Part shown: positions 8,701 through 64,000 of the stretch, piece after piece
How the letters are laid out: each line of letters opens with the position of its first letter
Numbering within the stretch: position 1 is the first letter of the stretch
Assembly (NCBI GenBank): GCA_903813345.2
Contig: CAIIXF020000010.1
Coordinates: 9,664,349-9,728,348 of the forward strand
DNA from: Owenia fusiformis
Taxonomy: Eukaryota > Annelida > Polychaeta > Sabellida > Oweniidae
Direction of reading: 5' to 3'
Length of the DNA: 64,000 bases
The notes under the pieces: generated by a model
The model's input: the letters and a program-made list of their open reading frames with translations, nothing else
Told to the model about the DNA's origin: nothing
The model's database searches: none
Translations under genes and position numbers: made by a program

Positions 8701-9925
8701 TTTGTTGAACATATTAACCCAGTGGGGATACAAGGGATATATTAGGGGGTAACTGACACCAATGCCAGCATGACAACTGAAGCCAAACTCATTTTTTACC
8801 AAAGAGAGGGCTGCAGTTGATAAAATATTTGTTGACCATATCTGCAAAGTCAAACTTGACACATTTATCACTACGGGTGAGGAACTCCTGAACTAAAGCA
8901 GGTTAGGGCAACTGAAAATAGATATTAACACTAATATAAAATGAAAGGTTATGTTGCTTATCTTTTATAATGGCCACATGAGTGATTTTTACTGCTTGCA
9001 AAGTTAAACTCAGATGATACCTTTCATTCTCAAAGTTAGCCAAATTGAAAAATCGGTATGTGTTTTAACAGATATCACCAAATTCTTGTGATTTTGATTC
9101 TATTTAAAATGTATTTGAAAAATCATATCATTGCATATTATCACATCCCAAAAATATAGCAATGATTATTTCTACCCAACGTTAATATTCCCACGAATCA
9201 ATTCAGGTAAGGCGTGTCCTCATCCTTATAAAATCATGATATCATCATTATGGAAGAACTCCTGACATTTTTCCATATAGATCATTCGCTCCACAGACTT
9301 TAAATCCCAATTCCTTGCAAAAATACCATTAAAATTACAGTAAATCATACACGAAGCCAGATTTTATCAAATTATTCGAAATTCTTGGTTTCACCCCAGG
9401 CAGCCTTTAACTCATAATAATCATAATTTGGGAGTGTTTACGAGCCTCCAACAAAAGGGGATTCACTCTGCACCAGGATGGGACATGGGGCCAGTTTTCA
9501 ACTGCATGGAGTTTTATGTAGTGTTTTATGGAGCATCAATCAAACAGTGATCATTACAGTACTTTGAGGAATAACTCAACTGTAAATTCGTCATGGGAAC
9601 GTGCCACTTCTCTAAAAGTGAAATTTCAGCAAGGGCTTCTTTAGCAGGTACACTGTGAATGTAATTACAACGTCTAAAATACTCTTGACTATCTCAGTAT
9701 ACTGACTCCCCAGTCCCAACCCCTAGCTGCTTTCTTACCTAGTTCTGAAATAAAATAGAATTTTTTCAACAGATATGATCATCATCTTTAAAAGTCCCTT
9801 AATTAATATCAAGGTATGTGCCAGAGTCAGGACGAGTGGGGTAAGATTTAGGCACATAAGGCGAAGAAAAAGTGCAATAAAACAATTGCTTCTTGATTTC
9901 TTGATTGCTTCTTTGCTTGATTCAT
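5791..9925. other. Non-coding stretch, no gene seen
   Basis: AT-rich sequence with frequent stops in all frames. It holds a short GAT/GATGAT microsatellite near 7727-7760. I found no exon with paired splice signals and protein-like content. Confidence 0.6.
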
Positions 9926-9972
9926 TTGTTTGTTTGTCTGTTTATTTGTTTGTTTGTTTGTTTGTTTGTTTA
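9926..9972. repeat. (TTTG)n microsatellite
   Basis: About 11 TTTG tetranucleotides, the same motif as at 3098-3160. Confidence 0.9.
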
Positions 9973-12900
9973 TAAAGTAGGGAATGAAGCTATGATGTAA
10001 TTACTCTAAAAATTATACCCCATTATTATTGATGTGAATTATCTAAACCAGTTTAACCTCAAATATGATCCCTATCTTCTATCTATACAATAGAAGTCAC
10101 CCTTTAAGTAAAACAGTGATGGTCGTTTAAGGTGAAAGCTGACATTATTCTTATTTGAAAAATTGCATCCTTAAATATCATCTATTTTGGAAAACAACCC
10201 ACGTAGAATATTACACATATAACAATACCTGAGATTTAGCCAAAGATCAGTTCCCACAATTTCTGATTTTTTATAAACAATGTAGGTTTGACTTTATGTT
10301 TCAAAAACATGCATAAACCAAAAATAAAATTTAATTGATCGAAGTACTGTCTCGCCAACACTGAATATATGGTGGGAAATGTTCTTTTTTTTAAACTATG
10401 GGTATATGAACTTTAAAGATTATATAAAGAGAGAAAAATTAAACCTTATAAAATTGATCTGTACAAAGTGCCATTTGGATTTTCCGAACTACATGTTGTT
10501 AACCATGTTTATCCTTATATGGTAAGGCGAATTAGAACATGTGCCTTGAGAAACTCAAAATACATTCTCAAAATATAAACACTTCTTTAGTCCCACTTTT
10601 TGGACGTCTCCTGATTCCACGTTGTCACAGGGTCTCAAGGTGGACATTTGCAACCAGGTTGAGTAATTAAAGCTCATTTGAAACAGCTGGGTGTTGCGTT
10701 ACTGTATAAGTTCCATAGACTCAAGCAGATATACTCAGTAGACAGATTCATCATTTCAAGTTCATGTTCTATAGGCTTAGTGAATGGTTTATCTGTACAT
10801 GTACAATACGGATGTAATCCCACTTAGTTCTATCTGCAACTATCTAACCTTCAAAGTGGAAAGACTTTGAAGTTTGTCTGGTCTTTGACGCTTTTCTTAC
10901 TTTCCTTCTTGAGCCATTGAACTTCAGATTGTATGTTTTGTCTTCAATTAATGAAATAACAGGGAATCTGTGAATTTCTACCTTGAAAGTTTATGTTATA
11001 AGGGGGCCTCAAAATTAAGGAAATCCCAAACAGGGCCCATTTTGTTTCAATAATTGAGTCCCATTCTTCAAACGAGACCTAGTATTTTCTCAATAACAAG
11101 GCCTATTTTTGAAAATGAGTTCCATATTAAAGTCCAACATTTTTAATTTCTACAGATTGTTTCAGGCCTACCTCAAGCTCCTCCCGAAAGAAATCCTGCA
11201 TTCCCTATACTTTTAGGAAATGCTTATTGTATGTTGTAATACATAAAGTACAAGCAGTATCTGAAAATTGACAATAATAAAGTAAGTTATGAAAATTGTA
11301 ATGTAATGTGGAGGCAACATTTAGATATAATCCAGACAAACAACTACCCTGCGTGCAGAGTCTAGTTAAACTACAAGACGAAGCTCTCTTTTAAGAAGTG
11401 AAGTCAAACAAATGCAAAGGGTAACAAACAACTCAATTGACAACTCCTATTCCTCTGACGTAAACATCGCAGATAAAAAAACACAATTTTATCACCAAAT
11501 CTAGCTCAACATTTTATGAATTTGTCATAATTGTCATCATTGTAATATTGCCTTTTGTGATTTTAGTGCAGAATTTAGAATACATTATTGTATTTTTATT
11601 GCGACAAAAGGCTAATTATAAGCATATGAAATGTGCACATTTCTCCCAAACCATCCTTGGGACATTATATTCCCACAGGTGCATAAACTCTGGCACTTAT
11701 ATTTCACATTCATAACAAATAAATGCGAAAATCATCGCCAGATCATCTCAAACTCAAGATAAAAGTCCACGAAGGTATCTGGGAAAAACAGGTTCTGACA
11801 AGTGTTGGGATAATAGGAAGAATTTGGGAAGAAGTTAACAAGCAGTAAATGGTCTATGTAAAACACATGTTCAAAACCGGGATGATGTTTCTTGGGATTT
11901 TTCTCACATTTCAAGAGTTTTTATTCTCCACGGGTGGGATGCGGTGAGATAGCATGTAAAATGATGTACATGTACACAGAGTAGCTCTCGGCTGTATACA
12001 TGATTCTAGGAAGGCTACAAAATATGGACCATATTACAAAACATGTGTACACCAGAATATGAACCCATAATAGACAAATAACTAATTGCTTTAAAAAGAA
12101 TAATTAAGGAAATGAATCACAAAAATAATATATGCAAAATTTTGTACAAATCTTAACTACAATACTAATCTAATATCACATCACATTTATTTTGATTAAA
12201 AATGTTTAAAATTCATAACTAAATAAATTCTCAAAAGCAATTACTAACGATATAATATACTGTATTAATAAGTCAATTCAATTCAATAATACTATCTTAC
12301 AATAATCACATATTATCGTTACCTATTATAACCATATATTATTAGATAGCCAGATTCATCAAATGCTTCTGGTCATGACCTCCAATGATTGAGGAACCCC
12401 AATCCAAACTTGAGTTCTACATCCAGGTGTCAAAATCCAGTAAATGTAAACAGCCAAAAACCATGGGTGTCATCCGAGCATGATGAGGAAAAAAGCAATA
12501 GGCTAAAAAGGGCATGGCCTTTAACGAGGATTAAGACAATATTTGTGGAAGATGGGAGAGATGCAAGGAGGGATGAAACTCCAGATTGAAGAGATAACAG
12601 ATAATTAGACCGGGATCTATAACAACTCGGCTGTGAAGAAAAACACATCTTGGAGAGCATGGGAGGGATCGACCAGGTTACGAACCTGTCTCAATTGAAG
12701 ACAAACATGAAATATTTTATTAGCATGGCGTTGGCAACAAGAATTTTGTCATTTTCAGCTGTCCCTTCTCCTCCCCCTACCTCCATATGTAATATAAAAA
12801 AACATATAAATGACAAAGGGTTTTCTGAAAGGCATTTTCAATCATTTCAATTAAAAAAGGACTGCATCAAGTTTGTAAACATCACTAAATATACTTTTGA

Positions 12901-14209
12901 AATAGCCAAATTGAGAAATGTTGACGGTGGTATTTCCCTACATGCAACACTGTCCAAATCTTGCTGATCGAACCCCAGATTTATAACCAAACTGACAAAT
13001 CTCATCTTGACTTTGGTATTTTGACATCATGAAACATGGACATTTGGTATTTTCACTACATAGAATAGCTGGTTCTTGGACGTAGGTATTTTCGCTACAT
13101 GTTATTATGTCCAGAACTTAAAGGTTCAACCTGTAAGATTCCATAGCAAAGGTGTGACCCTAAAGGTTAATTATTTCATACACCTCGTTAACAGGTAGAA
13201 AGTTATGCCAGGTGAGAGTACAGGTAAGTAGTCAGGTTATGGTCCAGGTAAGAGATCAGGTATGTTATCATCCAACATAAATCAACCATAGCTGAGTATG
13301 TATAGATACTGTAGAATATTGTTTGCTTTTTAATGAGAAAAATAAGTCTCTTCCCAACATCATTCTACAAAAAAAGAAATACAGTAAACCTGCATATGGT
13401 GAACACCCATGAAGCCCCAAAAAGTGTTCACTGAAGAATAGGTGTTCACTACAGAAAGAGATTTTATAAAGGAGATTCAATGTAAAATGTGTCTTGAAGT
13501 GGTGTTCACTAAACACAGGTGTTCACTAGAGAGAGGTGTTCACTAGAGAGAGGTGTTCACTAAGACAGGCTTAAATATACACTTTAATGGTAAACATGGT
13601 ATTGCCATGGTATAAAATGACCATAACCGAATATGTTATACATACAAATGTATAGAAATACTTTTATTTCAAATAATAATTTGAAACCTACCACAACTCA
13701 TAGTATCAGTAACATCATCCTTAATTTTCCATTCAAATATGTTTAATCTTCAACTTTCAATACTCTTAGTACTGAAAATTTCCACAAGAGGGCAGCATGT
13801 TACTGCATGTCATTATCATTGCAATAGAACCAGAAACTGAATGTTTTGATAAATATGGAAATTGCTCATTCAACAATAATCTAACATGACATCATAATAT
13901 ATAGATCATATATGGCAAACAAACATACCTTCAAGCTAAGCAATGTCTTAGATTACACATTTTAAAAAAAATGTACATCTGGTAAACCTGGGACTCCTGA
14001 CCTATGAAAATTATTTGGGCTTGAAAGGTGAGCCTCATATTCCATGCAGCCTCAGTTGGAAAAATTAGCCTAAATCTTTCAAATTTAAGGCCAAAATGTA
14101 AGCATTTTCTCCAAACTCATTTGGATTAACTGGCCTTAACTTTTCAAAAACTGGACAAAAATTTTGTAAGATTATATCAAATTCTGAAAAATATTTGAGA
14201 AATACTTAC
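9973..14209. other. Non-coding stretch downstream of last recognised RCC1 exon
   Basis: No convincing exon was found. The remaining 3' exons of the RCC1-repeat gene should lie here or further left, because the last exon found ends in a donor. At 13385-13570 there are several short repeats of GGTGTTCACTA, probably a decayed transposon fragment. A very AT-rich run lies at 12100-12340. Confidence 0.5.
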
Positions 14210-14359
14210 CCGTAAGCGCCATGCTATGAGACTGGCCAGCAGCCACTGCAATTATATTCCTCCGTTTATTGGGCCATATCAGCTCTTCAGGTTCCAGAAT
14301 GTCCTTTGCTTTGCTCCCACAGCCTTTTCCACTTCCCCACACAAATACAGTGCCAAGAT
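14210..14359 (-). CDS. RCC1-repeat gene, last exon recognised
   Basis: Acceptor TATCTGCAG|ATCTTG, donor ACGG|GTAAGT, 150 nt, phase 1 to 1. It encodes LGTVFVWGSGKGCG and IIAVAAGQSHSMALTG. The clear donor shows the gene continues to lower coordinates. Confidence 0.88.
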
Positions 14360-17300
14360 CTGCAGATAAAATATGATTACAAGGTTTTAAACAACACTAA
14401 CATGCAACATGTTACCACCTGCCATTTGTTACAGATGCCTAACACTAAACACTACTGAACACCAACTGTGCGAACACTGTCCACGAAAACGTTGGAGACA
14501 GTATAATAATATGTCACCACTTGTGGTGGTGACATGAAAACATATACTAGAAGACTGTAAAACTCATACAGTAATACTATTGAAATGTAAATGACATTTG
14601 GGCAATGGGCATTTGAGATATTGCCCAAATGGATAGATATAAGTGGAGGAGGGGGAGCTTGTTCAGGAGGATAACAAAAACATAAAGAGGGATAGTAAAG
14701 AACAGCTTAAATATCATTGCACAGTCAAGTTCCTCATATCTGTGAATCTTGGATCTTGACCAGTGTACATGCAGTTAATTACAGGGTGTCAAATAAGTCC
14801 CGCCCCCCCCCCCCCCCCCCCCATCTACAGCCAAAACCAAGATATATGGTACCAAGTGTGATATATCATTGGAGAGGTCTTCCAAAGTTACGTTGATTAG
14901 CATATATCTGACACATGTCAATCAATCTCACAAAGTTTCACAGTGTATCAATTGAGGTGACCATAGGCCTAGAAACATGGCAATTTGGCGTATTTGGCTG
15001 GATTTTCAGAATTGGGTATAAGAAAAGTCAAAGGACCTAAAGATGACTACATATGTATATGGCAATGAATTTAACCAATTTCTGGAGAGGGGAAGATGTG
15101 TAGAAAATAGAGGAGCAAAGCAAGTGGTGAAAACATTTTTGTAACAAGTGGAATGCGAAAAAGATTAACTTTTTGACATATTTCTGAGGTCAAATCCTTC
15201 TCATTTTGACGCAAAAAACTGCTTAAAGGAGGGTATACTCACTATAAAAGACATCATGAAAATATAGGCGAAGTTCATCCAAAATACTTGAGAGTTGGTG
15301 AGTTAACATAACTTTGTATGATCTTTCCAATGATATATCGCACTAGAGACCATCTATTAAGGTTCTAGCTGTAGCAGGGGGGACGGGACTTATTTGACAC
15401 CCTGTATACCACATATAATAATGTACTAATGTACTAAGCTTATCATATTCACTTATGATATATCCCAAACAGAGCTACCCAGAATATATATAGTTGTCAA
15501 ATCAAATCAAACAGCCAGCCCCCCCCCCCACCCCACCCCACTGATCCTCTATATTGCCCCCAACTGACCCCATCCACCTGGCAAACCAATATATCAAACA
15601 TTTGTCTCTGTAGGAGTAAAAAACATTTCTGAAGACATATAGGGTCAAGCCCCTGGATAAGGTATCAGGATATCTATCATTTGAACCTTGTTGGTGTTGA
15701 TGCTATTGGGGGAGGGGTGTCTCTGTAATTTCAGTATGTCAGTGTAAAAGCATCTTTATAAAATAGTATTAAACATAATCAAGAGTAACATTTTTCTCAC
15801 AACACATATAGCCTTGTTGAATGTTTCCATAACTCAAATAACTATAAAAAATATAATTAAGCCAAACCATAACTTCCAACCAGCATCTGTAAGTTGTTGT
15901 TTTTTGTGCAAATTTGTTACTTAGTTTATTTGTTTGTAATTTGTTTCTAATTTATTTTATGAAGCCATGACATGACAATGAGTGATACGTCTAAATAGAT
16001 CACAGTAACCTTAAAAATGAAATTCACAACTTCTGACCCACCCTGCTATGTTAGGGTTAGCTCTAACACAGCCTTTGACTTTTGGTTCAAGGACCATGTA
16101 GCACTTGGTCTGTGGTCTTAGACCTTCACCTATACTGGTCCAGAGTTTCTCAATTCACTACTTGGGCCTGCCATGTCTTTATTATTAGAAATGTTCACAA
16201 ATTGATAACTGAACAATGCTTATCATAAAAATCATAAAAATTTTTTTTGTAAACATGGAAATCTTCATAGATGTTTACTTTGATGTGTAGAACTGCTATT
16301 TAGTTAATTGTGATTTGAGAAAGCTCATTTACAAATATGGAAGATATAACATGGCAAACTCACACCTGTATTTGATCAAAATAAAAACTTGGAACAACCA
16401 AAAGTCAATTTAGGTCACCTAAATACATATTTCCATATTTACTCTTCTACAGAAATCTGGCTTCCAGATTAACAAGCTTAAATAAATCGGCATTTTTTAC
16501 AAAATTAGCTTTTTGCACAGATGTCTCAAATGATCCCCGATGTTTTTTCGATATAAATCGCTATAAAATAACTCAGATAAACATACATATTAGCAGAGAT
16601 TTTCTCACATGATATCATGAGATAGCAGTTACCCATCTGGGCCTGGTTAATACGAGGATTAAAAACAAGATGGTGGGGTGATAGCTCCCAAATGTGTAAT
16701 AAATACAATATCACTTCCACGCTCTAAAAAAGTTAAATCAACGGCCAGTTCCATAAAAATGTAGAATCCTGGGAAAAAAGAAACTGACCAGGGTTACATT
16801 ACTTAAACATTTCTAAATTGAGAAATTCTGAAGTTTTGTTCTCATATTTTCACATCAGCATTTCTGGTCACAAACAATGAATTTAGGAGTTTATTTTTGA
16901 AATGAGAAATTATTGAGTGACCAGAGACTAAAAGAAGACATTAACATGCAAAATAACACCACCTGCCATTTGTTACAGACATCAACCACCGAATGCCAAA
17001 CACAAACCACCGACAGCCATCCACAAAATAGTTGTAGGCTAAAACAATATGTCACAACTGCTATCATGAAACCAAGTTCATGAAATCATACGTACCATCT
17101 ACGATGATGTTATGATTGGCCCCCGTGGCAATATGCTTGATTTCCCGGAGTTCATCCAGGATTTTAGGAACAACAGCTTCTTCTCTGTCTCCTGTGCCTA
17201 TCTGGCCAAACGCATTGTTCCTGAAAGAAAGGCAATAACTCAATATTCAATGCAATAATGACACAAGTGTATGTGCTAAGCTAACAGTATTTCTTGAAAT

Positions 17301-20300
17301 GAGATTTTTATATTTTCTAGTTTAGTTTATTGTTCCTTGCATAATTTTTCACATTTAAATGATTAAATTATTTCAACAATATCATCAACCATTATAACCC
17401 CGGAGCATATATTATGGTCAAAACAAGATCAAAGAAAAATAATTTCTAATACGATAGTTATTTAGTGGAGTGTTGGAACACAAATCAGAGAAAATTAGTA
17501 GAGTCTGTTAGAAAGTGTCCAAATTGTTCACTGAATGGAATAGGAAATATGAAGATGTCTTTATTCAAAATTCAGAACATATAAGATTCTTGGCACATAG
17601 GTTTGTTTCCAGGAATATATCACGCTTGATTTGATCTGATTGGTCAATTAATTTAGGTTGATATTCATTATATCGACTGATCATAATCTTGATATTTGGG
17701 TTTTTCTCCTTATGAGGTTTACTATCTTTTAAGGAGTTTGTCTCATTATTTCTTTCTTATCAAATATTGCCCCTTGTGCCTCCTCATTTCTTGGAATTAT
17801 TTTTTATAATTTCAACGAGAATGTGGAACATATTAGAATAATAAATTCTGAATCTTGGATGACCTCCCTCTAGCATACATTAACTTCTATACTAGCCATC
17901 AACATGGTAAACCAATATTTGTCAGAATTAATTATGCCTTTTCAGAGGCTACAATATCCCTTAGCGACTAAATTATTAAAAGTATCTCTAATGTGTATTG
18001 TCACCATGGTTAATATATGTACTATTCCCATGCTAAACATTTCACATATTTCACTCAATTTTTCTTATATTTGCAATAATATATTTAATTTGTAAAGATG
18101 TTATTTAATCTTAAATGTCAAAATCAGTTGTACATCTTTCTTTCTTGTTTTGATTACACCATTTTCCACTCTTTTCTATTTTTTATATTTTCATTATGAT
18201 ATTTCATCAATGGCATTGCATTGTTTAAGTTCCCTATGGCATGGTGAATTTATTAGAAATAATAATTTGAGTTTGTAAATATTGACTTTCACAATCTGTA
18301 CCCGCAGACTATTTGTGTACCATTAAATCAAGATCAGGTCAAAAATAATGACCAATTCGCAAACAAAATTAAATCTACCTAAATTCATATTAAACCATAC
18401 AAAAGAAAAATGTATCTATTTTAATGGATCAGAGATTTCAAAACAAAGCAAGAGAAAAGTGGAATTTAAAACTAAAATGTATTATTCATGGTATAATAAA
18501 TGACCTGTCATTTTGGTAAATATTTATTTTGTCTAGAACTGCCATAAGTTGATCTTTTTCTAATGTGACACATTTCTCAGACATAAAGAAAGTTGATGAA
18601 AATACTGTTGGCGGACCAAATGTCCTCACTTAAGTATAAATTTTTAAAATTTAAGGTTATCTAAATTGATATTCAGATCCTCAATTGTTTTGGAAAATAC
18701 AATATATTCCCTATCCATTTTAACAACTCAATACAACATATACTCTGATGAAATCAAACAATGTTTCAAAGCCAATATGATCATTTGTGATATAATTTCC
18801 ACTGAATTGTCAACTTATTTCAAAATAAGAAGGTTGCATTTTTGGGGGTAACCCTGGATGATTCAGTGCAATCACCAAAATCAATGAACATCTGTTCCTT
18901 GAGTTCTTTTCTTTTTACAAAATTGAAGATAGTATCCAGTTCAATTATTAAATTATTTCTGTCCAAAATGTAGATGCTGTGTATAGCATTTCAAGTATAA
19001 TCTTACCATTTTCACTTCACCTTTAAATTCAAGGTCTAAAATCTAACCTTAACTTCAAATTTTATTATGAATGTACATGTATACAAGGTATTAACATACA
19101 AAATGTCACCACCTGCCATTTGTTACATACACTGAACACTGAACATCAACCGGTGAATACCAAACACCATTCACAAAAAGTTGAAAACTACAACAATATG
19201 TCACCACTTGCATAAAAATATTGGATAAACTGAAAACACCCATCGTGAGATATCACAGCCTTCTCTCAGTTTCCTTTCTAGAACTTGTGCATTGCAGAGA
19301 TGGTCTGAGTATCAGAATGGAAAACACCTGGGTTCTGAGAGTGTTCAACCCATGAAATGTCATTTGGCCAGCTTTCTAGGTTATTTTACACAAAAGGCCT
19401 CAAATTTTGTCAAAAAAAACAAACACCAAATTTTACAAGTAAAAATAGGTCAGAATTTTCATTAGAAATTAGAGCACCCTTTAGCAGACACACATATGAT
19501 AGGGATGAAAATACCTACCCCAGAGTAGCCACAGCTCCATCTTTGAATAGAATCAGAGTGTGCTTCTCCCCACAAGCAACCTGCCTCACAGGCCTGTAAG
19601 TTAGGGTCTCTAAAAGCATAGGCTTCACCTAGAAGTAAAACAAATACTATATCATTGGCTATTAACAATAAAAATCACCCTGAGGGTACAATCCAAATTT
19701 AAATAAAAGTTTGATGTAACACTTCAGGTGTGTAGCCAGCTTTTGCCAAGGGGAGTCTGTTTTTGTAAAATTCCGAGGGGTACTCAAAATGGTGAAAACT
19801 GCATGATTTTGAACCCCCTTTCCCCCTGGCTACGGGTCTGACTTACAACTGTGCAAATATCAAGTTAAACAAGATACCATATTCAAGTATATCGCAAACA
19901 ACACTAAAAGGGAGCATAGATATTATAAATTAACAAGCAGAACAAAGTCAAAGTTCATTGTTTTAATGTTACATAATAAAAAACATGATAGTAGCTCGAA
20001 GGAACATTTGACATTTGGAAATCCCAAGTGATAAAAAACAATGAATATTGTATACACACTCAAGAAAAGTTAATCTTCATTCAAGCTTTCTGGATATAAC
20101 CCAATGAACAGCACTTATAGAAACAACCAAACTAACAAATATGGATGCTGTTAAAAATGGTATACTGTCACTAAAAGATCTGCTTTGTGTCTTGGGATTA
20201 TTGAATCCAACTGAATTTCAAACTTTTATTTTTAACATCATTAATTGCAAAGTTTGATTAATGGAAATGAATTGTTATTGATTTCCAAAGTTAATGTTCT

Positions 20301-42459: not shown

Positions 42460-44751
42460 TCGAGGAAGGGGACGTGGTTACGGTGGACGTGGTCGTGGAA
42501 ACAATTCCAACAACCATTTTTTAGGCCAGGGCTACGGCAGAAACAACCACCAGCGGAACTCTACCCGATATCCCAACAAGAGAGGGAGAGGGGCCAAGAG
42601 CAAGTCCAGCAATGCCAGCGAGAAAACCACCAATCAATAGGTCATGTTGACACTATTACAATAGACACTGCACCTGAAAAGGTAAGACAAACACTTAAAA
42701 GCTCTGTCAATTATTTTCAAGGTGGTCGACTTAAAATGTTCTTGCATGAATGGGAACGTATAACATCAGATCAGTCTATATTAGATGCTATCAGTGGTTA
42801 CACGATTGAATTTTGTGATGATGATATTCAACGAATGCAATGGCCATGTAACACAAATTACTCAAGGTCAGATCATGAAAGCATGGATCTAGAAATTGCC
42901 AAATTTGCAAAAAAGGGTATCATTGTACCAATTGATGATTCTAAAAAAGGTCACGTGTCACCTATTTTCCTGCTACCCAAAAAAGACGGGTCAAAAAGAA
43001 TGATTTTAAACTTATCTGATATAAATCAGAGTGTAGAATATCATCATTTCAAGATGGAAAATCTTCAACATGCCCTCAACATCGTGTCACCTAATATGTA
43101 CATGAGTTGTGTCGACATTAAAGACGCTTACTATAGTGTGCCAATTGCTACTGCTTCTCAAAGATTTCTGCAATTTGAATGGAAGGGCCAACTATATCAA
43201 TACACTTGTCTAGCTCAAGGGTTATCTTCGGCCCCCAGACTATACACTAAAATTATGAAACCTGTTTTTGCTAAATTGCGAAATGAAGGCCATCTATCGG
43301 TAGCATATATTGACGATTGCTGTCTATTTGCAGAAACCTCTGAGCAGTGTAAGCAGAACACCTATGACACAATCAATTTGCTCAGAACACTTGGCTTCAT
43401 AGTTCATCCAGAAAAGGTTATCTTGACACCAACACAGGTAATAACTTTTCTTGGTTTCGAACTTAACAGTATCAATATGACTGTAAAACTTCCCTGTGAT
43501 AAAGCACAAGTTGTGAAATCTATGTGTAAATCATTATTGTCTCGTAGCAACTGCACAATCAGGGATGTAGCACAAATCATTGGTAAATTAGTATCATCTC
43601 TACCAGGTGTTCAATATGGCCAGCTTCATTATAGAAATCTTGAAAGAGATAAAACAAAGGCTTTATCTATCAATGAAGGCAACTTTGATGCATGCATGCA
43701 ATTATCAAATGATGCAAAATCCGACCTACAATGGTGGATAAATAATGTAACGAAATCCGTTAAACCAATTTCTGTTACAGATCCAGGTATGTTGTTACGA
43801 ACAGATAGCAGCACAAAAGGTTGGGGTGCAATATGTGTCACCAATTCTGTTAGAACAGGTGGACGTTGGTCAGCTGAAGAAGCTTCCAATCATATCAATT
43901 ATCTTGAATTGATGGCCATATATCTTGCATTGAAATGTTTTTGTAGAGAAAAATCACACATCCACGTACGTGTTGAAACGGATAACACTACGGCTTTGGC
44001 TTACGTTAACAAAATGGGAGGTATCACATCGATTGCTTGTGATAACCTAGCAAAAGATATTTGGAAATTCTGCATTTTCAGAAATATCTGGCTTTCAGCA
44101 GCATTTATTCAAGGTTCTAAGAACACTGACGCTGATGAGGAATCTCGAGTATTCCATGATGAAACAGAGTGGATGCTCGACAAAGCAGTGTTCAATCAAC
44201 TGATTAATCTGTCTGATTGGCCATCTCCCGTAATTGATATGTTCGCTTCAAGATTGAATCATCAGCTCCCACGTTATGTGTCGTGGAAACCTGATCCAGA
44301 TGCTGAAAATATCGATGCATTGAATATAAAGTGGAATGATGAAACTTTGTATGTGTTTTGTCCTTTCAGTTTGATCACGAGAGTTCTAAAGAAGATCGAA
44401 CACGATGCCATAACCAATGCTATCGTTATAGCACCAGTGTGGACAACACAGCCATGGTGGCCGAAACTTCTGAGACTCTTGATCGATATCCCAGTGATAT
44501 TACCCAAAAGGAGAACGTTATTGTACCTACCGTACGACAAACAGAAACGCCATCCTCTTTGGAGAAAGATGACTTTGACTGCATGTCTTTTATCCGGCGA
44601 TCCATCGAAATCCAGGGAATTTCGAAAGACACTACCGAAGTCATCTTATTGTCTTGGCGATCTGCATCCAAAAAGCAATATGCTGTCTACTTACGTAAGT
44701 GGGTACACTTCTGTCATAGACGGAAAATTGATCCATTTCAATCATCTGTGA
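42460..44751 (+). CDS. DIRS ORF2, reverse transcriptase / RNase H / methyltransferase-like
   Basis: The frame is open from just after the ORF1 stop at 42457. The first ATG is at 42736 (671 aa from there), but homologous sequence (YFQGGRLK) starts before it, so the true start or entry mode is uncertain. Counting from that Met: RT fingers LLPKKDGSKRMILN (79-92), palm CVDIKDAYYSVP (125-136), catalytic YIDD (191-194). The RNase H acidic residues are D357 (RTDSS), E391 (LELMA), D416 (ETDNT) and D467. The DMFASRLNHQLPRY block (501-514) and the following PDPDAE..DAL..W region match the methyltransferase-like C-terminal module of DIRS elements. It overlaps the YR ORF by 394 nt. Confidence 0.93.
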   Translation, partial: SRKGTWLRWTWSWKQFQQPFFRPGLRQKQPPAELYPISQQERERGQEQVQQCQRENHQSIGHVDTITIDTAPEKVRQTLKSSVNYFQGGRLKMFLHEWERITSDQSILDAISGYTIEFCDDDIQRMQWPCNTNYSRSDHESMDLEIAKFAKKGIIVPIDDSKKGHVSPIFLLPKKDGSKRMILNLSDINQSVEYHHFKMENLQHALNIVSPNMYMSCVDIKDAYYSVPIATASQRFLQFEWKGQLYQYTCLAQGLSSAPRLYTKIMKPVFAKLRNEGHLSVAYIDDCCLFAETSEQCKQNTYDTINLLRTLGFIVHPEKVILTPTQVITFLGFELNSINMTVKLPCDKAQVVKSMCKSLLSRSNCTIRDVAQIIGKLVSSLPGVQYGQLHYRNLERDKTKALSINEGNFDACMQLSNDAKSDLQWWINNVTKSVKPISVTDPGMLLRTDSSTKGWGAICVTNSVRTGGRWSAEEASNHINYLELMAIYLALKCFCREKSHIHVRVETDNTTALAYVNKMGGITSIACDNLAKDIWKFCIFRNIWLSAAFIQGSKNTDADEESRVFHDETEWMLDKAVFNQLINLSDWPSPVIDMFASRLNHQLPRYVSWKPDPDAENIDALNIKWNDETLYVFCPFSLITRVLKKIEHDAITNAIVIAPVWTTQPWWPKLLRLLIDIPVILPKRRTLLYLPYDKQKRHPLWRKMTLTACLLSGDPSKSREFRKTLPKSSYCLGDLHPKSNMLSTYVSGYTSVIDGKLIHFNHL

Positions 44752-45563
44752 ACATAGGACTCGATTTTCTCACGTCTCTTTATAAGGACGATTTAAGCTA
44801 CAGTGCTATTAATACGGCCAGGTCAGCGTTGTCATTCATTATATCACAAGACTCTGTTACTTTTGGAAATCACCCTTTGGTTTCTAGGTTTATGAAGGGT
44901 GTGTTCAACGACAGACCTCCGTTACCAAAATATGAATCAACATGGGATGTATCAGTAGTGTTAAACTTTCTCGAGACATTTTATCCCAATGAACGTTTAT
45001 CATTAAAGGAGCTTACGCTTAAAGTAGTGACACTTCTGGCTTTAATTACAGGTCAACGTCGTCAAACGTTGCATACATTGACAGTCGAGAATTGCATCGA
45101 AGAACACTCAGGTTATAAACTTATTATTTCACAGTGTTTAAAAACATCAAAATGTGGAAAACCATTACCAATTCTCACTTTACCAAGATATAGCAATGTG
45201 AAATTATGTGTATGTGCGGCTTTGAAAGACTATATTAATCGCACGGACACTCTAAGAGGTAACCAAAGTCAGCTACTCATTAGTTTTCAGAAACCATACG
45301 CAGCTGTATCTCTTGACACCATCAGTAGGTGGATCAAGCTCACTATCAAAAATGCTGGAATTAATGTCGATATTTTTAAGTCTCATTCCACACGCTCTGC
45401 GTCTACTTCAGCAGCACTAAATGCAGGTGTTGGGCTAGATGTTATTCTTAAGGCAGCAGGTTGGTCTTCCAGTAGTACATTCGCAAAGTTTTACAATAAA
45501 CCTGTGCAGAAAGATTCTGACAATTTTGGATTAGGTGTTCTTAAAACAACTGAATCAAAGTAG
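44358..45563 (+). CDS. DIRS ORF3, tyrosine recombinase
   Basis: 401 codons, in a different frame from ORF2. Its first 130 codons overlap the ORF2 end, so the functional N-terminus may begin later than the first ATG. The catalytic set is complete: R234 in ALITGQRRQTL, H343-x-x-R346 in KSHSTRSAS, W369 in KAAGWSSSST and nucleophile Y379 in AKFYNKPV. This enzyme replaces the usual DDE integrase and would integrate the circular DNA form. No stop or frameshift interrupts it. Confidence 0.93.
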   Translation: MSFQFDHESSKEDRTRCHNQCYRYSTSVDNTAMVAETSETLDRYPSDITQKENVIVPTVRQTETPSSLEKDDFDCMSFIRRSIEIQGISKDTTEVILLSWRSASKKQYAVYLRKWVHFCHRRKIDPFQSSVNIGLDFLTSLYKDDLSYSAINTARSALSFIISQDSVTFGNHPLVSRFMKGVFNDRPPLPKYESTWDVSVVLNFLETFYPNERLSLKELTLKVVTLLALITGQRRQTLHTLTVENCIEEHSGYKLIISQCLKTSKCGKPLPILTLPRYSNVKLCVCAALKDYINRTDTLRGNQSQLLISFQKPYAAVSLDTISRWIKLTIKNAGINVDIFKSHSTRSASTSAALNAGVGLDVILKAAGWSSSSTFAKFYNKPVQKDSDNFGLGVLKTTESK

Positions 45564-48981: not shown

Positions 48982-51900
48982 GTGAGTTTGAAGCATTTTT
49001 CTTTTAATTTTTAGTTTGCTTTTTAATTTTGTCAATGAGACACGCCCACTTTCTGTTTGTGTTGAGTGAAACTAAGAGCTGGGAAACTTCTAGGGTTCAG
49101 AGAAGACATATGTCTTATTAAATTTGTATTGTAATTCGGAAAATAAATGACAAATAAAGGCTAATGAGGAGGAGGATAAATTGAACAAAAAATCAACATT
49201 GAACATAACAAAGGATACAGATAATAAGATAAGATAAGCACCGGCTTGTAGGCTGGTGTAGCCTTTTGCCTGTATAGGTGTGTGTATTTGTTATACACAT
49301 CAAGTCATATTTGGCATATGTACCCTTAAGGCTTGTGCTCCCAGTCTAATTTCAGTGGGTGGTTGTACCAATGGTCATCCAACTTGTTCTTGAACTGGTC
49401 AACACTTCTTGCTTGAATAACATATTCAGGCAGTTTGTTCCAGGGTGATATGACTCTGTTGGAAAAGAAATGCTGTCTTGTGTTTAGTCTACAGTGTTGT
49501 CGTTTCAGGTACATTGTGTGTCCTCTTGTTGGCTGCCTTGTTATATGGTTCAATTGAGGGAAGATAGTCTTGGGGCTGATGTCATAGAAATTGTTCAGGA
49601 TCTTGTACAGCTCAATCATATCTCCTCGTAACCTCCTAAATGCCAGTGTTGTCATGTCAAGTGTTGCTAGTCTTTCGGGGTATGTTAATTGCCTGAGGTT
49701 TGGTAATAGTCTAGTTGCTCTCCTCTGTATGTTTTCAATGGCTTCAATGTCTTTCTTATACTGTGGGCTCCAAACTGAGTTTCCATACTCCAATATTGGA
49801 CGGACAAGGCCATTAAAGAGTAGCTTAAGAGAATCCTCATCAATATACTTGTAGCTTCGCTTTATTACTCCCAAGACTTTATTTGCTTTATTTGCAGTTA
49901 TTGTCACATGCTCGGAGAATTTCAAATTTGAGTCAATGTTGACACCTAAATCTCTTTCCACACAGCTGTTTTTTAGTATTACATTTTTCCCACTTTGTGT
50001 ATCAGTCATATTATAGGTAGGTTCTGGTTTCATATTTCCCACTCTCAAAACAGTACATTTATTCGGGTTGAATTGTAGTTTCCATTTGGAGGCCCATGCT
50101 TGTATTGTATTGAGGTCATTTTGGAGTTCATCCGTGTCATTCTTGTTCCTAACTTCTCTGTACAGTTTAGTGTCGTCAGCGAAAAGAGCAATCTTGCTGT
50201 TTGACACGACATTAGGCATATCGTTCACATAGATAATAAACAGAATCGGCCCAAGGACAGTTCCTTGAGGAATTCCAGAGGTTACAGTGGTCCATGATGA
50301 CTCTTTTCCATTTAGTGAGACTCTCTGAGATCTGTCAGTGAGGAAATTTTCAATCCATTTGTGAGCAACTCCCTTAATACCAAGTTGTCCAAGTTTAGTG
50401 AGCAGCCTTGCGTGACTCACGGAATCGAAGGCTTTCGCAAAATCTAAATATATGCAGTCTGTGGTGCCACCTGCATCGAGAACACGGGTCCAAGCTTCTA
50501 GGACTTGCAATAAATTAGTGATACAGGATCTTTGGGGTAGAAATCCATGCTGTGTTGAAGATATGATTTTGTTTGCCTTGAGGTGATTAAGGAGGTTTAC
50601 TCTAACTATTCCTTCAAGCATCTTGCATACAATACTGGTTAGACTAATGGGGCGATAGTTTGTTGGTTCATTTTTTGCTCCTTTTTTGTAGATTGGGGTG
50701 ATATTTGCCTGTTTCCAGTCTCTGGGTATATTTCCTTCCTTAAGTGATTTAGAAAAGATGATATAAAGAGGGCGCTTAACAACGTCATGTAGTTCTTTGA
50801 GTATACGGCCCTTTATACCATCTGGGCCAGGTGAAGAAGTAAGTTTGAGGTTGTTAAGTCTTAGGTCAACATCTGCTTCAGAAATTTCCCAATTCTGGAT
50901 ATATGATCCTATATACATAAAGTCTAGCACGGGGCTATCAGTCATTTCATCTGTGGAAAAAAAAAATAATACCATAGGTTCTGGGCCGGTATAAAGATGG
51001 CAGCACCAACAGAATACAGTATTATCTTTTTGTAAATAAACACAGATCAATTACCATACCATCTTTATTTGAATTATTTCTATCGACCTTTGCCTATGGA
51101 TAATACATGTACCTTTTTGACATCTATAAATATCTGGATTCGTCATTTTCTCACAGACATAGAGATCATTACCAGAATTTCCTCCATTTAGGTCCCAGTC
51201 AACGGAGTCTATCAGCTGCAGCTTTGAAATCATTGCATCTGGATTAAAACATCCAGCAAATGTGCTATCATCCTTCAAGCTGTTAACTTGATGCTCCCTT
51301 GTACGGGGAAGATCAAAATATTTTTGTGAAACTTCAGAAAACTTTTTAAGCTTTATAAATTTGTTTGATTTATTGTTGTTCTAGGTATACTGTGTAGATG
51401 TTTATGTCAATGGCAGACAGCACTCTGTGGAGAAGCGTTATAGCGAATTTGAAGACCTACATAAACATGTAAGTTCTATTATTTTTGTAATTACAGTATT
51501 TGGAAAGGTTTCATGAAAAATATTTAATCAAGTAAGGAGAGTTACTAGATTTTTTCATCAAAAGCGTTCAAATTAAAATTTACATTATTCTGCCCAAAAT
51601 TGGTTTATCTTCAAACTCTTGGTGCAGCCTGAGCACCTACATGTTACAATGCTGTAAAGATTTGACTGGAGATGAAAGGAAAGTGATGTCTCTCAGCAAG
51701 TGTCAAACTCAGAAACAGCATTCACACCCTATGCAGACAGAGCCTGTGGGAAATATTGGGTGCGGAGCAAATGAGCGGAGGGTGCGGAGCTAACGGTCAT
51801 TTTTGAATTTAAATTTGGGATATTTCTGAAACTAAGCCGTTTTGGGACTTCAAATATACCAAGATATGTGTATTTGACACCAAATATCAATACAATTGTA

Positions 51901-58445: not shown

Positions 58446-59390
58446 GTGGTGGTGGTGGTCTTGAAAAAATACCTTTTTTGACCTTGAAAAGGTCATTGAA
58501 GGTCAAATCTTAATTCTATAGTCAGATTTGAACTTCTTAAAACTTGTAGATGATTTTGAAAAAAAATTGGGAGTGAGATTTGAACTTCTGAAAACTTGTA
58601 GATGATTTTGAAAAAAATTGAAGTCAGTCGAAACAGTATTTGTCAAGTTATTGGAAGTTGTAAGAAATTGTTACAGACGCCGATCGCCGATCGCCAACCG
58701 CTGCCCACCATCCGCCGATCGCCATCACAAAAAATGGAGACCATAACAAAATGTCACCACTTTTTGGTGGTGACATAAAAATGTGTAATGCCAGTCATAA
58801 AATGGAAACTATGACAACACATGCATACAAGCACTTCGTAGTTACATAGCAACATTAACAAGGCATTAACATGACAAAATCAAAATGTCACCACCTAGTT
58901 GCTCACAATATTGTTGAGAACTTGAATTTGAACTTCTGCGAACTTGTAGATGATTTTGAAAACAAATTGGTCAATTTGAAAGCAAGTTTTTGACCTTAAA
59001 AGGCCATTGAAGGTCAAATGTTTTTTTGACCTTGAGAATATCATTGAAGGTCAAATCTATAGTCAGATTTGAACTTTCGAGGAATTCTAGGTGATTTTGA
59101 AAAGAAATTGGTCAAATTGAAGCAAGTTGCAAAAATACCTTTTTGACCTTGAGCAGGTCAAATCTCAAATCTAAAGTCAGATTTGAACTTCTGATAACTT
59201 GTAGATTTTGAAAAAAAAATTTGTCAATTTGAAGCAAGTTGTAGAAAGACCTTTTTGACCTTGAAAAGGTAACTGAAGGTCAAATCTTGAACATTAAATC
59301 ATATTTGAACTTCTGAAAACTTGTAGATGATTTTGAAAAAAACTAAAGTCAGTCTAAACAGTATTTGTTAAGTTATTGAAGTTTTAAGAA
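58446..59390 (+). repeat. About 115-bp tandem/complex repeats enclosing MITE copies
   Basis: Units share CAGATTTGAACTTCTGAAAA, CTTGTAGATGATTTTGAAAA and TTTTTGACCTTGAAAAGGTC followed by ATTGAAGGTCAAATC. At least five units in whole or part, in the order broken by the MITE pieces at 58665-58890. Confidence 0.8.
58665..58890 (+). mobile_element. MITE, ATGTCACCAC family, copies 7 and 8 (pieces)
   Basis: 58665-58780 has TTGTTACAGACGCC, a GATCGCCGATCGCC-rich middle and the end AAAATGTCACCACTTTTTGG with TGGTGACAT, lacking the left end. 58858-58890 has only the left end, CAAGGCATTAACATGAC and ATGTCACCACCT. Confidence 0.7.
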
Positions 59391-59475
59391 TTTATTACAG
59401 ACACCAACCGCCACCCGCTGATCACCAACCACCAACTACCGCAAAAAATGGAGACCATAACACTATGTCACCATA
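59390..59475 (+). mobile_element. MITE, ATGTCACCAC family, partial copy
   Basis: TTATTACAGACACCAACCGC with a CCACC-rich middle, ending CACTATGTCACCATAAAT. Both ends are eroded. Confidence 0.6.
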
Positions 59476-59546
59476 AATGTTCATGTATATAAGCGAATGC
59501 CTTTCTATGGAAAAACACAATACACCAAGATATAACATTTAAATAC

Positions 59547-59552
59547 TTTATT
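59547..59552 (-). terminator. Candidate SDHC polyadenylation signal AATAAA
   Basis: Minus-strand AATAAA about 575 nt after the SDHC stop. It is the clearest canonical hexamer I saw in that interval, but a closer non-canonical signal is possible. Confidence 0.35.
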
Positions 59553-60126
59553 TGGCAAAAACTGTGCCTACTAGCTGGTACATGTATACTCCCTTGTAAT
59601 AAATGAGTATGTTTAAGAGTCAAGAATAGTAGGTTAAATTACACTTACAAGCTACTAAAGCCCCTTTACATGTACATGTACATATACGATGTATGTACTG
59701 TATATACTATTGTATATTGCAGCGCAAAAATCTATAAAATCATCTTGATTTGCTCAAGGAAGAAACTTGAATTGTGTCACTTCTGAAAGGAATTCTTTTC
59801 TGATAATGAAAATGTGCGAGAAGCAGACAATGACGTAATAGATACATTGCGACAGTATGTAACCAGAATTATAATAGTACACTTGAGGTACCTGAGACGA
59901 ATCTTCTGTTATTAGGTTCTGTCATCAGTAAGCTTTAACGTACACTGTATACATAATTCAGAATGATGCATAAACCAGGTCTGATCTGTCACCATGGTAA
60001 CCGTATCTTTCATAAGGTGCAACAAATAGATACAGGTACATATCTAAGAACAGACAGATTAATATGTATGTACATGTTACATATGAGTCTAGAGTCTTTA
60101 CATTAACTGTGAACTGCACTTAGTGT

Positions 60127-60240
60127 TTATTTCCATGGTAAAGAGGCAACTGTTGCGGCAATGATGAATGAAAGAGCGAACACGGTCCATCCACTTTTGT
60201 AAAGAGTCTTCAGTCCAAATCCCCATACTGCATCCCAAGC
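60127..60240 (-). CDS. SDHC: SDHC, terminal exon
   Basis: Acceptor TATTCTCCAG|GCTTGG, stop TAA at 60127. AWDAVWGFGLKTLYKSGW, then a final hydrophobic helix ending ATVASLPWK. Confidence 0.92.
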   Translation of the reverse strand, partial: AWDAVWGFGLKTLYKSGWTVFALSFIIAATVASLPWK

Positions 60241-63200
60241 CTGGAGAATAACGTCAAAAGGTTAGGCAAAAATAATATGAACATACATAAAAAATAATAT
60301 TGTTTCAGGTTATATTAAATTTCTTCTAACTAAAACCCCATCAGAAATATTTTGAAACTAATTTCAATAATAATTTCATTAAATGTGTTTGAAATAATGA
60401 AGTAGAAAATCATATTATCATGTTTATCATCAAAAAGCATTCAATTCTACCTGTCAATGTTAAAACTTACCAAATGACGTGATCCATTCATCCCATGGTA
60501 TATAAGTGGCCAACATAAGAACATCTTCATTCCATAGTACGCCGATGAAGGAAGCTGGAGGTCCTTCAGAACAGCCACATAATGTGGGAAGTCATGTGGT
60601 AGTGCTAATAGAGTACAACTCATCAGAGCAACAGCTGCAATAAGAAATCTGACTTGAAATACAATACATATCAAGTACACTTAATGTGGGAAGTCATGTG
60701 GTAGTGCTAATAGGGTACAGCTCATCAGAGCAATAGCTGCAATAAGAAGTCTGACTTGAAATACAATATATCAAGTACACTTAATGTGGGAAGTCATGTG
60801 GTGGTGCTAATAGGGTACAACTCATCAGAGCAATAGCTGCAATAAGAAGTCTGACTTGAAATACAATACATATCAAGTACACTTAATGTGGGAAGTCATG
60901 TGGTAGTGCTAATACGGTACAGCTCATCAGAGCAATAGCTGCAATAAGAAGTCTGACTTGAAATACAATACATATCAAGTACACTTAATGTGGGAAGTCA
61001 TGTGGTAGTGCTAATAGGGTACAGCTCATCAGAGCAATAGCTGCAATAAGAAGTCTGACTTGAAATACAATATATCAAGTACACTTAATGTGGGAAGTCA
61101 TGTGGTGGTGCTAATAGGGTACAGCTCATCAGAGCAATAGCTGCAATAAGAAGTCTGACTTGAAATACAATACATATCAAGTACACTTAATGTGGGAAGT
61201 CATGTGGTGGTGCTAATAGGGTACACCTCATCAGAGCAATAGCTGCAATAAGAAGTCTGACTTGAAATACAATACATATCAAGTACACTTAATGTGGGAA
61301 GTCATGTGGTAGTGCTAATAGGGTACAGCTCATCAGAGCAATAGCTGCAATAAGAAGTCTGACTTGAAATACAATATATCAAGTACACTTAATGTGGGAA
61401 GTCATGTGGTAGTGCTAATAGGGTACAACTCATCAGAGCAATAGCTGCAATAAGAAGTCTGACTTGAAATACAATACATATCAAGTTCACTTAATGTGGG
61501 AAGTCATGTGGTAGTGCTAATAGGGTACAGCTCATCAGAGCAATAGCTGCAATAAGAAGTCTGACTTGAAATACAATATATCAAGTACACTTAATGTGGG
61601 AAGTCATGTGGTAGTGCTAATAGGGTACAACTCATCAGAGCAATAGCTGCAATAAGAAGTCTGACTTGAAATACAATACATATCAAGTACACTTAATGTG
61701 GGAAGTCATGTGGTAGTGCTAATAGGGTAAAGCTCATCAGAGCAATAGCTGCAATAAGAAGTCTGACTTGAAATACAATATATCAAGTACACTTAATGTG
61801 GGAAGTCATGTGGTAGTGCTAATAGGGTACAACTCATCAGAGCAATAGCTGCAATAAGAAGTCTGACTTGAAATACAATATGAAAACAGTATATGTATGT
61901 ATATTGGTGGCCCAAAAGTAGGTACAGTGGGCCAGTCTGTATATAGATACATTCAAATGCATACTTATAATTGCACTGGTATGAATTCAATTAACATTGT
62001 TCTTCCACATTAACTTGTGATATTTATGCACCATTCCCTAGCGCTAAATTGTTGTAATGCTCAATTAGACAATTACTGTAGATATACTTAATTTGGCCCC
62101 CATTTTAATTTGACGGATTGGCGGATTCAGAAAAGCCGCCAAATTAAAAATCTGTCAAATTTCAGTTTAGAATTTTTCTCCGATGCACTTCAGAAATTAA
62201 ACTCCAGGGGACCTTTTCCTGTCAACATGTCATCAATTCTACATTATTCCAAAAGAAATATAGAAAATATCTTAGTAAATACCTGTCCTAGTGACGTAAA
62301 CATCTACAAAAATTAAAAACTTAAGTTCTGAATCCGCCAAATTAAATAGCCACCAATATTTGAAATTGAGCAAATCAGTCAATGAAATTAAGTAGCATCA
62401 AAATAAGTGTATCTACAGTAACACTGAATAAGACCTTATATTATTGGCAAGCTATGAAATTATATAAAATATTACTTACACACAGACATTGCAATTCCAC
62501 ATATACGAAAGCAAATTGACAGCATGGATGTTAACTCAGGTCTGGAAAGTAGAGAATAAGACTATAGGTATTGATTCCAATAATAGCGAGTTTAAGCTTG
62601 CAATGTTTTTCACAACCTAAACGTGAACGGAAAATATCAAGGCCATGCATTTGTATGCTGGATAAGTCATATGTATAGGTTGGCGTTTCAATTTTATATG
62701 TAAGCCTAAACTCCCTTATACCTACATGGAGTTTGAGAGAAATCACATTATTGGAACAATAATATCGCAATATTTAATATCCAATAACATCAAAATGTGA
62801 TAATCATCCTAATGATCTTCTGCCAGGGGTATCAACAAGTTTCATAACCAACTGGCTAGCTTGTGTTAGAATATACAAGGGACATCCAAAAAGTTCCCCT
62901 GAATTTACATTATTAATATACTAAGAGTTTGATAGGTTCATTTAAGCAGCCTTCAGTATTGTAGAATAAAAATGGTAAAGGTTTTCTTACTTCTTTTTCA
63001 AAATATTCATTTACAATAACTAACAATTCACAATAATTGGCACTTACTTGTATACTGTTAAATGTGGTGAAAGTGGTCTCTTTTTTATTTCTACATTCCT
63101 TTTCCAGAACTCGGCCATTTCTGCTTCAGCTTTTAACTGTTGGGTTGACATGGGGATTCTGGAGAAGATGAACATTTATTAATTTTGCAGAACTGAGAAA

Positions 63201-63852
63201 ATAACTACAGAAAAGAATTCACTAAAACAGAAATGGCTAACAGCAAAGACATAAAACAAATGGGTTCTACTTTTCTTGGACAACTGTTCATCTGAGGGAG
63301 TCCGGGTCCTGAGATCTGAGATGTTATTGCATATTACATAACAGTTGTCTAAAAACTAATAACTATTCACACATTCATGAAATCTGAAGACTATCTTGAA
63401 CAAAAAACTTGGCTAATGAAGGATAGTTTCAGATGGATATTTTGAAATGCTAAGAGGGTTATCACAATTAATCTAAATGTATCTGCATAAAGTCACAATT
63501 AGAGGGATGTATTTTTCACCTATATCTTAACCAGTGTACATGTAGCTGAAAATTGATAACCCTGATATATGTTTTTTGAGACACAAATCTTAACAAGGCA
63601 TTAACATGCAAAATGTCACCACCTACCATTTGTTACAGAGGCAAAACGCCAAACAAGAACTTCTGCCACAAAAAATGTTGGAGGTAATAATAATATCTCA
63701 TCACTTCTGGTGGTGACATAAAAATACTTAATTTAACTTACGCCATTTTTACTAGAGAATTGAGGTTAGGTTTGCTGAATGCGATTGCTTGTGAAGTGGG
63801 CTTGATTATGCATGTCTGCCGCAGGAAACCTGATCTTCCACAAGCTGTCAAC
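60127..63852 (-). CDS. SDHC: Succinate dehydrogenase cytochrome b subunit (complex II), 5' exon outside window
   Basis: Five exons: 63742-63852, 63048-63158, 62480-62541, 60471-60634 and 60127-60240. All have GT-AG borders and continuous phases (2, 2, 1, 0). The 187 codons seen include a basic, Ser/Thr-rich mitochondrial presequence, the RPLSPHLTVY motif, MLSICFRICGIAM (the H-R haem/quinone region of the family), three hydrophobic helices, and WPLIYHGMNGSRHLAWD. That last stretch carries the His of the haem-binding H-x-x-N-G-x-R-H-L signature. The protein anchors SDHA/SDHB in the inner mitochondrial membrane and passes electrons to ubiquinone. The start codon must be right of 64000. The usual SICHR His-Arg reads SICFR here. 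Confidence 0.93.
60471..60634 (-). CDS. SDHC: SDHC, exon with helices 2-3 and haem His
   Basis: Acceptor TTATTGCAG|CTGTTG, donor CATTTG|GTAAGT, 164 nt. VALMSCTLLALPHDFPHYVA, then YGMKMFLCWPLIYHGMNGSR. It is the parent of the decoy array immediately upstream. Confidence 0.93.
60657..61879 (-). repeat. 12-copy tandem array of the SDHC exon boundary
   Basis: Twelve units of 100 or 102 bp begin (word AATGTGGGAAGTC) at 60683, 60783, 60885, 60987, 61087, 61189, 61291, 61391, 61493, 61593, 61695 and 61795. Each contains, on the minus strand, a pyrimidine-rich acceptor TTCTTATTGCAG and then 55 nt of exon (read AIALMSCTLLALPHDFPH). Each then reads straight into TAA. The real exon copy adjoins at 60580-60634. 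The 2-bp length difference comes from ACATATC against ATATC. All lie between the upstream donor (62480) and the true acceptor (60634). Confidence 0.95.
62073..62421. mobile_element. MITE with TTACTGTAGATAYACTTA ends
   Basis: Left TTACTGTAGATATACTTA, right TAAGTGTATCTACAGTAA. Inner parts GGCGGATTCAG and CTGAATCCGCC are also inverted. 349 bp, no real ORF, probable TA target duplication. It lies in the SDHC intron beside the decoy array. Confidence 0.75.
62480..62541 (-). CDS. SDHC: SDHC, first helix exon
   Basis: Acceptor ACTTTCCAG|ACCTGA, donor CTGTGT|GTAAGT, 62 nt, phase 2 to 1. PELTSMLSICFRICGIAMSV. Confidence 0.9.
63048..63158 (-). CDS. SDHC: SDHC, exon with RPLSPH motif
   Basis: Acceptor TTCTCCAG|AATCCC, donor ACAA|GTAAGT, 111 nt. 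AEFWKRNVEIKKRPLSPHLT is the conserved start of mature SDHC. Confidence 0.93.
63592..63727 (+). mobile_element. MITE, ATGTCACCAC family, copy 9
   Basis: AACAAGGCATTAACATGCAA, ATGTCACCACCTACCATTTG, ending AATATCTCATCACTTCTGGT and GGTGACATAAAAAT. It ends 15 bp from the SDHC presequence exon. Confidence 0.8.
63742..63852 (-). CDS. SDHC: SDHC, mitochondrial presequence exon
   Basis: Acceptor ATATTTCAG|GTTGAC, donor ATGGC|GTAAGT, 111 nt. LTACGRSGFLRQTCIIKP and SKPNLNSLVKMA: basic, hydroxylated, without acidic residues, as in a matrix-targeting signal. Confidence 0.85.
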
Positions 63853-64000
63853 CTGAAATATTAGAAATTACTAAATGTACAATCTGTTTTGAACAGAATC
63901 ATTAGCCTCTTAAAAAATTAACATCAAAGGTGTTGTTATTTTAATACTATACATGTACTTGACTAATCATATTGAAACTTGGTTCAGATATTCCATAAAG

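Follow-up and report, generated by a model that had tools for sequence, protein, structure and literature searches.

A tandem array of copied exon boundaries in an SDHC intron of Owenia fusiformis, with further boundary arrays in the same genome

The window analysed here, 64,000 nucleotides of DNA from the annelid Owenia fusiformis, carries on its minus strand an SDHC gene that extends from 63852, in a presumed presequence exon, to 60127 (Table 1). Its four joined coding exons match the Sdh_cyt family with an E value of 1.2e-26, and among solved structures 2h88_C, a chicken chain, comes closest (E 2.3e-33). The motif YHGMNGSRHL of the SDHC protein aligns with YHTWNGIRHL in 2h88_C, and its role is presumably that of a haem ligand. 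A protein search of the assembly found SDHC once and no second locus, and the idea of a second copy that serves as a safety net was rejected on this ground. A Pfam-family search of the genome missed even the true SDHC locus and is therefore uninformative on a second copy.

Table 1. Positions of the SDHC exons and intronic features in the window, followed by the splice-boundary arrays of the sampled pieces (L numbers)
Feature	Position	Strand	Remarks
SDHC exon, presumed presequence part	63742..63852	-	splice signals and open frame only, by eye
SDHC coding exon (IPMSTQQLKAEAEMAEFWKRNVEIKKRPLSPHLTVYK)	63048..63158	-	borders by eye
SDHC exon upstream of the array-bearing intron	62480..62541	-	donor GTAAGT from 62479
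MITE-like element upstream of the array, same intron	62073..62421	.	23-nt inverted ends (91% complementary)
Array, 12 copies of 100/102 bp	60667..61880	-	acceptor count, TRF, unit alignment
True acceptor segment, 32 nt	60635..60666	-	one base (-13) unlike the 12 copies
True SDHC exon, 164 nt	60471..60634	-	YHGMNGSRHL in 3' part; donor GTAAGT from 60470
Final SDHC coding exon, carrying the stop codon	60127..60240	-	borders by eye
TRPM-like array, 94-bp units	L015 6255-7281 (G000:C5:9006255-9007281)		acceptor and exon start
C2H2 array, 119-bp units	L030 4717-5761 (G000:C3:20004717-20005761)	-	99% match; exon end and GTAAGT
Lactate/malate-dehydrogenase-family array, 55-bp units	L039 1398-2163 (G000:C12:20001398-20002163)	-	exon end and donor; units 2142-1420
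Chitin-binding array, ~70-bp units	L033 3356-3597 (G000:C6:20003356-20003597)	-	acceptor and exon start; short, worn

Several other features share the window with SDHC. On the plus strand at 42460-45560 lies a retroelement, with an RVT_1 frame (42460-44748, E 6.3e-21) and a Phage_integrase frame of the tyrosine-recombinase type (44343-45560, E 1.8e-11), an arrangement that we take to be DIRS-like. A long open frame on the minus strand (49329-51050) encodes a reverse transcriptase domain (RVT_1, E 1.1e-36), a minus-strand frame at 20745-21113 matches RCC1 repeats, most strongly through a model of an RCC1-like domain (E 7.3e-12), and a 21-bp repeat on the plus strand (4339-5001) maintains an open frame of 221 codons, made up of QAARND-like heptads, for which no Pfam match was found. 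In the wider assembly, which comprises 12 contigs of 32-62 Mb and one of 0.66 Mb, a Ubx-type query hit three genes in one contig stretch with 75-83% identity up to query position 72-73 of 77. Matches that continue past the end of the homeodomain are presumably a protostome feature; some weaker matches of the same query, at 35-53% identity, likewise extend far beyond position 60, and the observation is thus suggestive only. Eryth_link_C (PF16915), the family of the annelid haemoglobin linker, scored over its cut-off three times on a single contig, with a best E of 5.0e-7 and a stop inside one of the matches, and had no match in 14 control genomes, none of them from annelids. These matches favour an annelid over a lancelet as the host. 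A mitochondrial COX1 query found no match in the assembly.

The intron between 62480 and 60634 is 1845 nt long, and its last 1.2 kb is a tandem array. Thirteen TTATTGCAG acceptors follow each other at a regular spacing, the step being 100 bp five times and 102 bp seven times; 12 of them lie in the copies (61880 down to 60667), while the AG of the true one ends at 60635. Seven units measure 102 bp and five 100 bp; all stand head-to-tail, and TRF describes them as 12.9 units with a 96% match and a score of 2428, or with a slightly higher score (2476) at a period of 202, a repetitiveness far beyond chance. Each unit is composed of 32 nt of intron end with its AG, 55 nt of exon start and 13-15 nt of filler, the latter reading AGTGTACTTGATA with or without TG and with one base changed in one copy. 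The true exon next to the copies (60634-60471) is intact, open and in frame. A preliminary description of this DNA had proposed 12 copies of 100 or 102 bp, all upstream of the true acceptor, that consist of the exon's own acceptor plus its first 55 nt and have near-identical pyrimidine tracts. Acceptor spacing and TRF confirm the array, the 32 + 55 nt are present in 12/12 copies, and 12/12 lie upstream of the true site. The acceptor segment, TATTGTATTTCAAGTCAGACTTCTTATTGCAG, keeps its AG and is identical in all 12, with C for T at -13 relative to the true one. The 55 exonic nucleotides of the copies depart from the true exon by two fixed differences (+3 and +23) and vary among the copies at four sites (17, 19, 24 and 34). 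A genome search for the unit, in a mode that skips very common words, returned 13 matches, all at the SDHC locus, and a dispersed satellite or transposon was rejected for that reason.

If the exon ending at 62480 were joined to a copy, the frame would yield GIAMSV-S-IALMSCTLLALPHDFPH-stop. This exact peptide results from seven of the 12 copies, and the others show C>F, S>R, L>V or L>P. In every copy codon TAT has become the stop TAA at the junction through the first base of the filler, and a product spliced into a copy would end before YHGMNGSRHL. The earlier reading of a peptide followed by an immediate stop thus holds for the stop (12/12) but needs correction at the junction codon, which is Ser and not Ala (SIALMSCTLLALPHDFPH-stop), and the exact peptide is confined to 7/12 copies; that the use of a copy would remove the haem-binding part of the protein is borne out by the position of the stop. 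An array of mutually exclusive exons was rejected on the same anatomy, with the exon part cut at 55 nt, a stop in 12/12 copies and weak donors only.

Tandem copies of intron-exon boundaries have been named mirages in lancelets (PMC3087553), and in our assessment the SDHC array is most likely a minisatellite of this type, which would go back to a single duplication over the 5' border of the SDHC exon and be tolerated by the gene rather than serve as a dedicated regulator. Whereas the anatomy of the array is directly legible in the sequence, the mutational steps that led to it are a reconstruction. A founder would have arisen when 32 nt of intron end and 55 nt of exon start were duplicated and rejoined through about 14 nt of filler, the first base of which would have converted TAT to the stop TAA. 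Repeat turnover, by unequal exchange or replication slippage and partly by dimers of about 202 bp, may then have raised the number to 12 copies. The copies are closer to each other (a mean of 1.33 differences per 87 nt) than to the true exon (3 to 5), which means that the founder probably diverged before it spread; the array, represented by one haplotype, is homogenised among its copies. The base at exonic position 17 is T in 4/5 of the 100-bp units and C in 6/7 of the 102-bp units, the exceptions being one C and one G, and this tracking of unit length, together with the period of 202 at which TRF scores best, suggests that amplification proceeded in part by dimers. At exonic position 3 the copies read ATT (Ile), while the true exon and the aligned solved chain share Val, and the Ile state of the copies is therefore probably derived. 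The search for a template of the filler was uninformative, the best exact match outside the array in 59000-64000 being 9 nt. The MITE-like element of the same intron, present in at least 39 other places of the genome among 40 scored of 647 first-look candidates, was rejected as the source of the array, as it is a separate element upstream of it.

Similar arrays occur elsewhere in the genome. In a sample of 26 pieces of 10 kb taken at round coordinates (260,000 bases), tandem arrays cover 22,187 bases; 29 arrays have a unit of at least 39 bp, and 16 of these have at least three copies. The flanks of 15/29 and 12/16 arrays, respectively, were examined visually on the basis of open frames, selected ones of which were also compared with Pfam, and at least four arrays of the sample span a splice boundary. 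Upstream of the true SLOG exon, the TRPM-like array has ten copies, nine clear and one worn. LSDAT_euk is matched in order by the frames at 5065 (E 2.8e-15), 5562 (2.8e-8) and 7231 (1.9e-4) of that piece. The frame at 7231 is the array's own exon, and its match falls below the curated cut-off; compared alone with solved structures this exon gives only weak matches, to an engineered protein (3e-4) and to TRPM3 (0.7-1). In the C2H2 array, whose exon matches zf-C2H2 over its cut-off, donors run from 5676 to 4724; the eight extra ones are all intact and share the hexamer of the presumed true donor, which is the first of the series judging from the open frame. The exon of the lactate/malate-dehydrogenase-family array matches Ldh_1_N (E 1.1e-12) and belongs, we presume, to the mitochondrial malate dehydrogenase. 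Its 13 extra copies include 12 with GT, in the form GTAAAT, while the true donor is GTAAGT, and since a CAG acceptor-like site stands 5' of the exon part the units look like 25-nt microexons. The exon of the chitin-binding array matches CBM_14 (E 3.7e-6), and the array has two clear upstream copies, one of them with AG, and a partial third that was left out of the counts. Over all five arrays, SDHC included, AG or GT is kept in 42/45 extra copies: 12/12 in SDHC, 9/10 in the TRPM-like array (with the worn copy counted as a loss), 8/8 in the C2H2 array, 12/13 in the dehydrogenase array and 1/2 in the chitin-binding array.

By simple arithmetic, four arrays per 260 kb scale to about 7,700 per genome, within limits of about 2,000 to 20,000 (assembly of 498,259,871 bases; Poisson limits). 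A total of 26,966 genes has been reported for Owenia fusiformis (PMC9977687), and with an assumed seven introns per gene this number yields an expectation for randomly placed founders. Four boundary arrays were seen against about 1.1 expected among the 16 arrays with at least three copies (Poisson P 0.024), four against 2.0 among all 29 (P 0.143), and three against 0.76 among the ten with at least five copies (P 0.042), figures that depend on size cuts set after the arrays had been seen, an assumed intron number, a borrowed gene number and recognisable exons only. These counts do not show a preference for boundaries; they do show that boundary arrays are not strongly purged. With at least four of them in 260 kb, the SDHC array is perhaps one of thousands of tolerated decoy arrays. 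A bolder proposal, which we consider rather doubtful, is that exon boundaries are a preferred birthplace of minisatellites, that thousands of genes carry decoy arrays and that in some of them, for instance SDHC, copy number could set mRNA output.

How might the spliceosome cope with 12 additional acceptors? Each is intact and equal in quality to the true one, and a first-come model of 5'-to-3' choice would favour the first copy, since the intron into that copy measures 631 nt against 1845 nt into the true acceptor; both points speak against an easy preference for the true site. Pairing across the exon, on the other hand, should favour it. The true acceptor lies 164 nt from the donor of its exon, and the copies lie 266-1378 nt from the same donor; the true acceptor is most likely favoured because it alone stands at an ordinary exon distance from a strong donor. 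It would thus be used nearly always, with the complete exon and its strong donor still spliced, while a copy would need either the same donor at 266-1378 nt or a weaker donor within the array. On a donor matrix, the donors of SDHC itself score 8.6, 8.3 (the exon adjoining the array), 5.9 and 4.4, the best donor in the units (CAA/GTCAGA at +81 or +83) scores 3.7, and the best of copy 7 (GAG/GTGTAC at +16) 4.3. A further seven GT sites in the gene, none of them an SDHC donor, exceed 4.4. Given this poor separation (4.4 for an own donor, 4.3 for copy 7), donors within the array may also be usable. A transcript that used a copy and was spliced to the true donor would be expected to undergo nonsense-mediated decay, because, by arithmetic, some 210 nt or more would separate its stop from the last coding junction downstream. 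Normal splicing of SDHC is what we infer from other species and genes.

Against the tolerated minisatellite, three other explanations have to be weighed. The array could be an intermediate in the gain of an exon or intron, in which a copy is recruitable as a new exon, as proposed for the globin mirages of lancelets. Each unit does combine an acceptor with a weak donor, and a model of this kind has been given (PMC3087553), but every copy contains an in-frame stop and the donors are weak, so that we hold such a role to be very unlikely; a related, minor rival, the reading of the copies as poison exons, needs the same weak donors within the array. The preliminary description had offered two meanings, a regulator of complex II level or a tolerated recent expansion. 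In the former case the level of complex II would be set through competition between the copies and the true acceptor, with a tuned fraction of the SDHC pre-mRNA sent into decay; the intact acceptors with an immediate stop in 12/12 copies and the single SDHC locus found are what this reading would lead one to expect. The RNA of the units nevertheless folds in an ordinary manner, no better than shuffled sequences (z -0.06 and -0.79, compared with -1.18 for the edge of the true exon), on account of which sequestration of decoys by RNA structure was rejected, and no Rfam element reaches its gathering score in 59000-64000. The exonic parts of the copies look free of constraint on coding, as 4/5 of the variant types are nonsynonymous. 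The four variable sites of the 87 nt all lie outside the acceptor part; its invariance might point to constraint but has a chance probability of about 0.16 and is no good sign of it. Equivalent arrays moreover adjoin unrelated genes in the sampled pieces, and the lancelet precedents are said to splice normally (PMC3087553, PMC3902484). A dedicated regulator of complex II thus finds no support and appears very improbable, while the tolerated expansion is strengthened by the lancelet precedent and the four or more additional arrays in 260 kb. Finally, although tandem arrays are prone to wrong copy numbers and the exact figure of 12 is the assembly's own and unproved, a miscounted or falsely built repeat is scarcely credible in view of the ordered differences among the copies (T, C or G at exonic position 17; units of 100 and 102 bp), the small size of the array (only 1.2 kb inside a 37-Mb contig) and the architecture it shares with other arrays of the same genome.

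Returning to the mirage-type minisatellite, many near-identical splice sites beside a true one amount to a natural experiment on how the spliceosome chooses, be it the first site met, the site nearest to the exon core or the site favoured by pairing across the exon, and the SDHC array, with 12 acceptors of equal quality and one locus found for its gene, makes a clean test case. What is new is that a genome apparently not that of a lancelet holds at least four further boundary arrays beside SDHC. No report of mirages outside lancelets was found in the literature searched (listings and parts of papers), and the lancelet huntingtin paper does not mention them; a search that required all terms together retrieved no report of SDHC splice variants, and one on phrases for duplicate splice sites no report of these. 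As mirages are reported only from lancelets in the literature searched, the present arrays suggest that they are not a peculiarity of these animals.

In lancelets, mirages are described for BflGb6, BflGb9 and Adh3 (PMC3087553), and also for TnC and PGBD5 (PMC3902484). The BflGb9 mirage is a copy of a 3' exon boundary, and the Adh3 units measure 10-72 bp (both as given in PMC3087553). The Adh3 data and RT-PCR of the globins suggest that regular splicing is not interfered with, and instability of length is reported (PMC3087553); a second study states the same for Adh and TnC and draws this conclusion for PGBD5 (PMC3902484). The SDHC array resembles these cases in that a boundary is copied in tandem and splice signals are kept in many copies, and it differs in dimensions, with 12 copies of 100/102 bp against six and three copies of 150-160 bp in two haplotypes of BflGb6. 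Its host is moreover unlike a lancelet, and while lancelet mirages come with splicing data the SDHC array is known from its sequence. Two other systems are comparable in part. Tandem genomic duplication has been described as a route of intron gain (PMC3443670), and there, as in SDHC, the duplicated segment carries splice signals; in that route, however, an exonic segment makes a new intron, whereas in SDHC an existing boundary was crossed and the copies stay intronic. The intronic VNTR of human ABCA7 is likewise an expandable repeat, for which an effect on splicing has been reported (PMC5954066), while for the SDHC array genomic sequence is the only source. With a unit that spans a boundary of its own gene, an intact exon adjoining it and the AG kept in 12/12 copies, the array has three of the defining features of mirages, and, so far as its letters allow a class assignment, it matches the kind already described in lancelets.
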